Below, piece by piece: positions 28,953 through 33,919 of a stretch of 64,000 bases of DNA. The notes under the pieces are model-generated. The model saw only the letters and a program-made list of their open reading frames with translations. It ran no database searches and was not told where the DNA came from. The number at the start of each line of letters is the position of its first letter. Within the stretch, counting starts at the first letter, position 1. Both the position numbers and the translations under genes were made by a program. Source of the DNA: Verrucomicrobiota bacterium (GTDB taxonomy: Bacteria; Verrucomicrobiota; Verrucomicrobiia; Chthoniobacterales; Terrimicrobiaceae); the NCBI GenBank assembly GCA_026398275.1, contig JAPLTF010000067.1, positions 1 to 64,000 on the forward strand, given 5' to 3'.

Positions 28953-30191
28953 ATGAGATCCTCCCTGTTTGAGCGTTTCGGACTCGCCCCGCTGGCGACC
29001 CTTCTCGCCGGCCTCCTGGTTTTTCAGTCCGGCTGCCAGAGCCTCTCGATCGCGCCCTCGCAGGCACGCGGGATCCGTGCGGTCATTGGCCGGTATCAGG
29101 AGGCGTTGAACCAGCGGTCGGCCGAAAAGCTTTTCGCCCTGCTCGGGGAGACGATCCAGGTCGACGGCATGACGGATGAGATGTCGCGGGCGGGATTGAA
29201 GGCCGGCATGCACTGGCCTCCGGCGGCGATCACGCGCTTTCAGATTCTTTCGATTTCCAAAACGCGGGGCGGACTCGATGTGAAGGCGGCGTTCTATTTC
29301 TCAAATGCCGTGCTGCAGGAACGGCTCGGGTTCGACGATTCGCTGCGGATCCGCACGATTGATCCGGTCCCGGTGTGGAAGACTCCGGAGGCTCAGGTCA
29401 TTCACGCGTTCTCCTCCCCGTTCGCCGAAGCCAACGGGCTGATGTTCGTGCGCGCCCGCGTCAATGAGCGGACCGGATTCTTCCTGTTCGACACCGGCAG
29501 CTCCGGCCTTCTCCTGAACAAGGAATATTTTTCGTCGGACTCCCGCAACGAGCTCCCTGGCTTCACGAGCACGGTGCAGGGGATCAAGCCGCGCTGGGGG
29601 ACGTGCGGGGTCCGCTCGTTCGGATGGGGGCAGCTCCATGTGGAGGGGATCCGCGGGCAGCTGCATGACTTTTCGATGATGGAGACGCCGGCGATCAGCC
29701 CGCTTCTCGGCGCCATCGGGCACGAGCAGCTCAAAAAGTGCGCGGTCGTCTTCGACTGGAAAAACCGGCGGCTCGATGTGCGCACGGCCGATGGAAACTC
29801 AACCGGCCCCCGCAGCGCAAAGGCGGTGATCCCGTTCTCGTATTTTCTTCATGCGCCGTCTTTCCCCATAAAGATCGGGGAAACGACCCGGCGGGTGATC
29901 TTCGACAGCGGTGCCCAGATCAACCTCCTGCCGAACGTCGATGGCATCGAAAGCCACTTCCACAAGATCGATGCGGTGACAAAGATCAGCGACGGCGGAA
30001 AGCTCGGCAAGGAGACCGCGCTGCTTGGTCTCGCCGATGAAACCTGGATCGGAGGCGTCCGCTATCAGGACCTCCCCTACGCGGTCTTTGAGGTGCCGTA
30101 TCTCTCCGGTCAGGGAATTCTCGGAAGCCCGCTCATCCAGCGGGGTCTGCTGGAAATCAACTTCCCGAAAAAGACGCTCTCGCTCTGGTGA
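28953..30191 (+). CDS. Two-lobed retropepsin-like aspartic protease, probable lipoprotein
   Basis: A 412-aa exported protein. After a membrane segment there is a probable lipobox ending in Cys28 (FQSGC; the -3 position is atypical). Residues about 35-155 form an uncharacterised N-terminal domain. Two retropepsin-like halves follow: FFLFDTGSSGLLL (Asp180-Thr-Gly) with LLGAIGHEQLKKCAVVFDWK, and RVIFDSGAQINLL (Asp318-Ser-Gly) with GILGSPLIQRGLLEINF. Each half has the D-[ST]-G loop and the later hydrophobic-Gly element of the fold, so one chain could build a complete pepsin-like active site. Divergent from moxR. The ATG at 28953 is preferred because upstream in-frame codons lack protein character. 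Single-lobe relatives (SdpA-type, gag-asp) need to dimerise. Confidence 0.78.
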   Translation: MRSSLFERFGLAPLATLLAGLLVFQSGCQSLSIAPSQARGIRAVIGRYQEALNQRSAEKLFALLGETIQVDGMTDEMSRAGLKAGMHWPPAAITRFQILSISKTRGGLDVKAAFYFSNAVLQERLGFDDSLRIRTIDPVPVWKTPEAQVIHAFSSPFAEANGLMFVRARVNERTGFFLFDTGSSGLLLNKEYFSSDSRNELPGFTSTVQGIKPRWGTCGVRSFGWGQLHVEGIRGQLHDFSMMETPAISPLLGAIGHEQLKKCAVVFDWKNRRLDVRTADGNSTGPRSAKAVIPFSYFLHAPSFPIKIGETTRRVIFDSGAQINLLPNVDGIESHFHKIDAVTKISDGGKLGKETALLGLADETWIGGVRYQDLPYAVFEVPYLSGQGILGSPLIQRGLLEINFPKKTLSLW

Positions 30192-33421: not shown

Positions 33422-33919
33422 ATGCAAGCCGACTGGGAAATCAAATCACGGGCGCACGTGTGCTCAAGGACCGGAGTGGAATTCCAGCCCGGGGAGGCCT
33501 TCTATACGATGCTGATCCGCGAGGGGGAGGGCTTCCGCCGGGAGGATCTTTCGGAAGAAGCCTGGGAGTCGCGGAATGACAACATCCAGCCTTTCTCATT
33601 CTGGCGCTCGAAATACGAGCCGCCGGCCCCGCCGCGTCCGGAGCCCCTCCCCCGCGACGATGCGGAGGGCCTTCTGCGCCGCCTGGTCGCGGAGAACGAC
33701 CCCGCGTATGCAAACGTGCGTTACATCCTCGCCCTCATGCTGGAGCGCAAGCGGCTGCTTCGTCCGGTGGAGAGCCAGGACGAGGACATGCTCGTTTACG
33801 AGCACCTCGCGACCGGAGAGACCATCGTGCTCGCCAACCCGCACCTGAGCTTCGACCAGATCCCCGCGGTCCAGAAGGAAGTCAGCGCGCTCCTCTCACC
33901 CGAGACCACGACCGGGTGA
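33422..33919 (+). CDS. Conserved hypothetical protein
   Basis: A 165-aa soluble protein. It begins three bases after the LptF/G stop, so it is probably cotranslated. It starts with DWEIKSRAHVCSRTGVEFQP, has an acidic middle, a Pro-rich patch (YEPPAPPRPEPLPRDD), then a predicted helical C-terminal half with RYILALMLERKRLLRP and TIVLANPHLSFDQIPAVQ. I recall similar short proteins in Verrucomicrobiota and Planctomycetota but know no function. No metal site or membrane segment is seen. Confidence 0.75.
   Translation: MQADWEIKSRAHVCSRTGVEFQPGEAFYTMLIREGEGFRREDLSEEAWESRNDNIQPFSFWRSKYEPPAPPRPEPLPRDDAEGLLRRLVAENDPAYANVRYILALMLERKRLLRPVESQDEDMLVYEHLATGETIVLANPHLSFDQIPAVQKEVSALLSPETTTG

Follow-up and report, generated by a model that had tools for sequence, protein, structure and literature searches.

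A probable lipid-anchored aspartic protease of two lobes in one chain, with an N-terminal NTF2-like module, from a Verrucomicrobiota bacterium

The window analyzed here, a stretch of 64,000 nucleotides from a Verrucomicrobiota bacterium, contains a gene whose product is best read as a two-lobed aspartic protease of retropepsin descent, formed by a single chain, probably held by a lipid anchor and bearing an NTF2-like module at its N terminus. It is most likely an envelope-anchored aspartic protease in which both halves of the active site are supplied by one chain. The reading frame opens with an ATG at 28953 and ends with a stop codon at 30191 on the forward strand, encoding 412 amino acids, and the gene sits on contig C33 of an assembly totaling 4.66 Mb. 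Its features are given below, where A9 denotes a family profile of 26 sequences trimmed to the protease part.

28953..30191, + strand: complete gene (412 aa), encoding a signal/lipoprotein peptide, an NTF2-like domain and two aspartyl-protease lobes
28953..29033, + strand: N-terminal signal peptide, residues 1–27, ending FQSG before Cys28 (from sequence; VLAGC and LLSAC at the equivalent place in orthologs)
29034..29036, + strand: Cys28, probable lipidation site (invariant in three orthologs, aligned in the distant relative L041)
29043..29387, + strand: NTF2-like (SnoaL/ketosteroid-isomerase-like) domain, residues 31–145 (AF2 model and VIA-align)
29415..29807, + strand: protease lobe 1, residues about 155–285 (two PF13650 stretches; held-out profile alignment)
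29490..29498, + strand: D180-T-G, predicted catalytic Asp of lobe 1 (invariant in the 26 A9 sequences; Asp in 52/52 two-unit ORFs)
29703..29711, + strand: L251-L-G253, hydrophobic-hydrophobic-Gly of lobe 1 (Gly invariant in A9, or one column from nearly invariant)
29808..30188, + strand: protease lobe 2, residues about 286–412 (best PF13650 stretch 305–393)
29904..29912, + strand: D318-S-G, predicted catalytic Asp of lobe 2 (A9 shows no variation at D or G; Asp in 52/52 two-unit ORFs)
30117..30125, + strand: I389-L-G391, hydrophobic-hydrophobic-Gly of lobe 2 (Gly nearly invariant in A9)

The N-terminal region and its genomic setting

A hydrophobic signal segment precedes the NTF2-like domain and ends in Cys28. 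Lipoprotein signal peptides close with the lipobox consensus [LVI][ASTVI][GAS]C, and two orthologs (L002/L006 and L003/L007) have canonical versions, LAGC and LSAC (within VLAGC and LLSAC, respectively). The corresponding context in the window protein is QSGC, a weaker lipobox since Gln at −3 lies off the consensus; L041 has IYC at the Cys position, also off consensus. The initial annotation suggested a probable lipid anchor, and this remains the reading of the sequence: the lipobox-type Cys28, with Gln at −3 in the window protein, is invariant in three orthologs.

In an AF2 model of the full protein, computed from three sequences (A3), residues 31–140 form a block with pLDDT values of 56–94. 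VIA-align of this model, for which the match covered residues 31–145 only, places that region among many NTF2-like, SnoaL/ketosteroid-isomerase-like chains (Z 11–13.6, 98–117 aligned residues). Residues 31–145 match no Pfam family, and they have the helices followed by a curved antiparallel sheet that characterize the NTF2-like fold, in a confident model that matches solved members. A distinct N-terminal domain had been proposed, and by AF2 and VIA-align it is a separate NTF2-like module.

The gene is flanked upstream by a divergent MoxR-type AAA ATPase gene (PF07726; 27884–28813, − strand), with 139 bases between the start codons, and downstream by a single gene fusing a lipid A acyltransferase (PF03279) to a GT9 heptosyltransferase (PF01075; 30245–32140, + strand), followed by LptF/G. 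In 21 of the 26 genomes of the family a match spans 600 or more of the fusion's 632 residues. Further along, a 165 aa ORF between LptF/G and dihydrouridine synthase (33422–33919, + strand) has no Pfam match at E 0.01. A search of some 6 kb around the orthologs in L006 and L007 found neither the MoxR-type ATPase nor the acyltransferase/GT9 fusion nor LptF/G, so we rejected the neighborhood as a clue to substrate. In stretches of two genomes of the same genus, the acyltransferase gene lacks both the MoxR gene and the protease gene on its upstream side. Membership of a defense system was likewise rejected, there being no PADLOC match.

Two retropepsin-like units in one chain

Inspection of the translation reveals two units with the retropepsin (MEROPS A2-like) signature, a D-[ST]-G loop with a hydrophobic-hydrophobic-Gly element in each: D180-T-G-S with LLG 251–253 in unit 1, and D318-S-G-A with ILG 389–391 in unit 2. 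Two full units in one chain, each with a hydrophobic-Gly partner, had been claimed around Asp180 and Asp318; both motifs are found at these positions, and both Pfam and a held-out profile agree. The Asp_protease_2 family (PF13650) matches in two stretches, above its curated cut-off (40.9 bits versus 24.3, E 3.4e-10), and is also matched by all three orthologs and, at E up to 1, by all 26 A9 sequences. Other families fare less well in the same protein. Gag-asp_proteas (PF13975) falls below its curated cut-off (24.4 bits versus 28.2), the pepsin A1 family (PF00026) has no match at E up to 10, and PF20729, the PE-PGRS C-terminal aspartyl peptidase (PecA), has none in the Pfam scan; PF00026 is matched by three of the 26 A9 sequences (best E 0.024) and PF20729 by one of three orthologs (E 0.058). 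An NCBIfam scan of the protease protein gave no match, and a direct sequence search with this protein alone against solved structures gave a chance match only (E 1.6).

The held-out profile comprises 22 distant two-unit proteins; the window protein itself, both its orthologs and L041, the next nearest relative, are excluded from it. It matches the window protein with an E of 1.7e-25, whereas the best of 200 shuffles reaches E 29 (HMMER --max, nominal Z 24736). Part of lobe 2 of the window protein can also be aligned with that half of the profile which represents lobe 1, showing a relationship between the two lobes; a direct BLASTP comparison of the two lobes (E 0.031, 22% over 83 residues) is weak by itself. 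With two units, the chain departs from the retropepsin arrangement, in which a single unit per chain is active as a dimer of chains, and as read from the sequence it has two lobes per chain with one predicted catalytic Asp each, as in pepsin A1.

Structure prediction gives low confidence for this part of the protein, with pLDDT below 50 over residues 140–412 of the full model and a mean pLDDT of 29 for the protease part alone (A4, 3 sequences). In a search of solved structures, the first match to A9 is PDB 9iy9_A, an “Exported protein” of 420 aa (E 2.7e-19). Its two protease units align with the profile one after the other, both have a DTG loop, and the protease part starts after about 165 residues. 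An earlier, PDZ-containing family profile (A6) gave many PDZ matches and the same first match. After 9iy9_A, A9 matches the retropepsins ASPRV1, Ddi1 and ApRick (5c9b_A, E 9.7e-7) on lobe 2 and tethered single-chain HIV protease dimers in two stretches. Weaker matches cover parts of candidapepsin, plasmepsin IV and endothiapepsin (E 5.6e-5 to 3e-4) and of PE_PGRS16 (4ehc, E 0.00087). The three-ortholog profile (A4) alone reaches 9iy9_A only at E 0.22, so the link to the window protein runs only through the wider family. By these alignments the structure of a two-unit relative is already solved; a text search of papers found none that mentions 9IY9.

In both tethered HIV dimers and pepsins, fused units pair intramolecularly. 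This, together with the finding that 52 of 56 ORFs in the examined loci (described below) contain two units each, neither more nor fewer, and the sequence alignment of 9iy9_A as one two-lobed chain, makes it very unlikely that the two units dimerize separately, each lobe pairing with its like in another chain rather than with its neighbor, even though the remaining four ORFs are single-unit relatives and single-unit bacterial retropepsins form homodimers, as reported for RloA (PMC12239564).

Distribution and conservation of both aspartates

Orthologs of the window protease are sparse. Matches occur in three of the 26 genomes of the family, its own included, and in five of 213 genomes of the order, two of these five being only distant two-unit proteins. 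The two orthologs are 47 and 41% identical to the window protein, with both aspartates and both Gly partners invariant. Both were recovered in a scan of genome contigs, from metagenome assemblies labeled Chthoniobacter flavus; scans of viral contigs found no relative. L041, from another family of the class, is more distant but has its parts arranged in the same order (23% identity across the full protein; protease-profile match E 4e-30).

The two-unit architecture, in contrast to these orthologs, is common in this bacterial class. Of 141 genomes sampled from the class, 82 contain PF13650, and scanning 67 loci with the two-unit profile (E 1e-5 or better) gave 67 ORFs, or 56 after removal of duplicates, a set that includes the window gene and both orthologs. 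Both units are present in 52 of these 56 and a single unit in four (L008–L011). The initial annotation had presented the two-unit chain as an exception among bacterial retropepsin-like proteins, which does not hold for the matching ORFs of the examined loci. Among the 52 two-unit ORFs the motif pair is DTG/DTG in 34 and DTG/DSG in 15, with DTG/DCG, DSG/DLG and DIG/DTG found once each, so that 49 have D[TS]G at both sites; in L029 and L015 (DSG/DLG and DIG/DTG) the odd unit was possibly forced by the aligner, and a stricter motif scan finds one D[TS]G in each.

All 52 have Asp at both places, a figure that is an upper view of conservation because the loci were best-scoring matches, which favors intact copies, and because 26 of the sequences had built the profile. 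There is no free loss of one aspartate among these homologs, the three orthologs included, and by sequence comparison two homologous units are conserved across very divergent relatives. Such retention argues against a two-unit retropepsin fold that has given up cleavage and been kept as a peptide- or envelope-binding lipoprotein, since if binding were the only role, loss of the aspartates would be expected in some lineages. The crystallized PE_PGRS16 domain has no observed activity, according to the PecA paper (PMC6819658), and the orthologs here have no known activity, but a non-cutting protein is, in our assessment, quite unlikely.

The tandem Asp_protease_2 proteins of the same class (for example L012, L004 and L037; L005, L024, L042 and L055 with PDZ; L014 with TPR) resemble the window protein in having two units and both Asp residues, and differ in carrying PDZ, TPR, Sel1 or no extra domain where it has the NTF2-like domain. 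The two orthologs aside, A9 relatives are 14–24% identical to the window protein. A Pfam scan of ten relatives found PDZ, TPR, Sel1 or nothing beside the two units, with L008 single-unit; in some of the nine two-unit relatives scanned, Pfam marks only one of the units. One group (L024, L025, L021, L028, L031, L036, L043, L044, L049 and L061) consists of probable lipoproteins which resemble the window protein in having a cysteine near the N terminus, here in an invariant Gly-Cys, and two retropepsin-like units (DTG and mostly DSG); their C-terminal region is PDZ by Pfam in L024, the one scanned.

A model for the probable envelope protease and its place among aspartic proteases

Considered as a whole, we favor, with a probability of roughly 0.8, a single-chain two-lobed aspartic endopeptidase that arose from a duplicated retropepsin-like domain, is exported, and is probably held in the envelope by a lipid anchor, on the side of the periplasm. 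The two lobes would pack on each other around a pseudo-twofold axis, as in tethered retropepsin dimers or pepsin, so that a single catalytic water lies between D180 and D318 and peptides are cleaved where the lobes meet, in the cleft, on the periplasmic side of the envelope. The pairing of D180 and D318 in one cleft is inferred from the family, and the assignment of the lobes to a retropepsin-like exported protease stands at the level of sequence. NTF2-like domains serve in small-ligand binding or oligomer assembly, and the domain here may act as a binding or assembly module.

Several known proteases share part of this design. PecA (PE_PGRS35) of mycobacteria is described as a single-chain surface protease with DTG and DSG motifs, whose D293G mutant shows no self-cleavage (PMC6819658). 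Like PecA and PE_PGRS16 (4ehc), which the same report places at the cell surface, the window protein combines the two motifs in a single bacterial chain; unlike them, it has no PF20729 match, and they carry PE/PGRS secretion parts. The single-unit retropepsins RloA/RimB and APRc (ApRick) have the same unit signature, with a D-T-G loop, but one unit per chain, RloA being reported to work as a homodimer (PMC12239564). Pepsins of family A1, bacterial members included, have two lobes with one Asp each and hydrophobic-hydrophobic-Gly partners. The window protein, in contrast, has no match to the pepsin family profile and lobes of about 130 residues, and it has a signal peptide, which bacterial A1 pepsins are reported to lack (PMC2761423).

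The window protein adds an NTF2-bearing branch to a two-unit design that is already known. According to the PecA report, bacteria have relatively few aspartic proteases, and these are generally cytoplasmic (PMC6819658). The exported two-unit form, which is widespread in a single bacterial class, seems to have been little studied, and our literature searches found no paper on it. A broader reading, which we consider unlikely, is that the tandem retropepsin-like proteins of the class, the NTF2-bearing lipoprotein branch included, are a living bridge from one-unit retropepsins to two-lobed pepsins, in which a fused pair forms one cleft; its basis is the span of family-profile matches, from retropepsins (ASPRV1, Ddi1, ApRick) through tethered HIV dimers to, weakly, pepsin stretches and PE_PGRS16. 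The exported two-unit form, combined here with the NTF2-like domain and what is probably a lipid anchor, would offer a tractable setting for testing the origin of two-lobed aspartic proteases from one-unit ones and for finding their envelope substrates.
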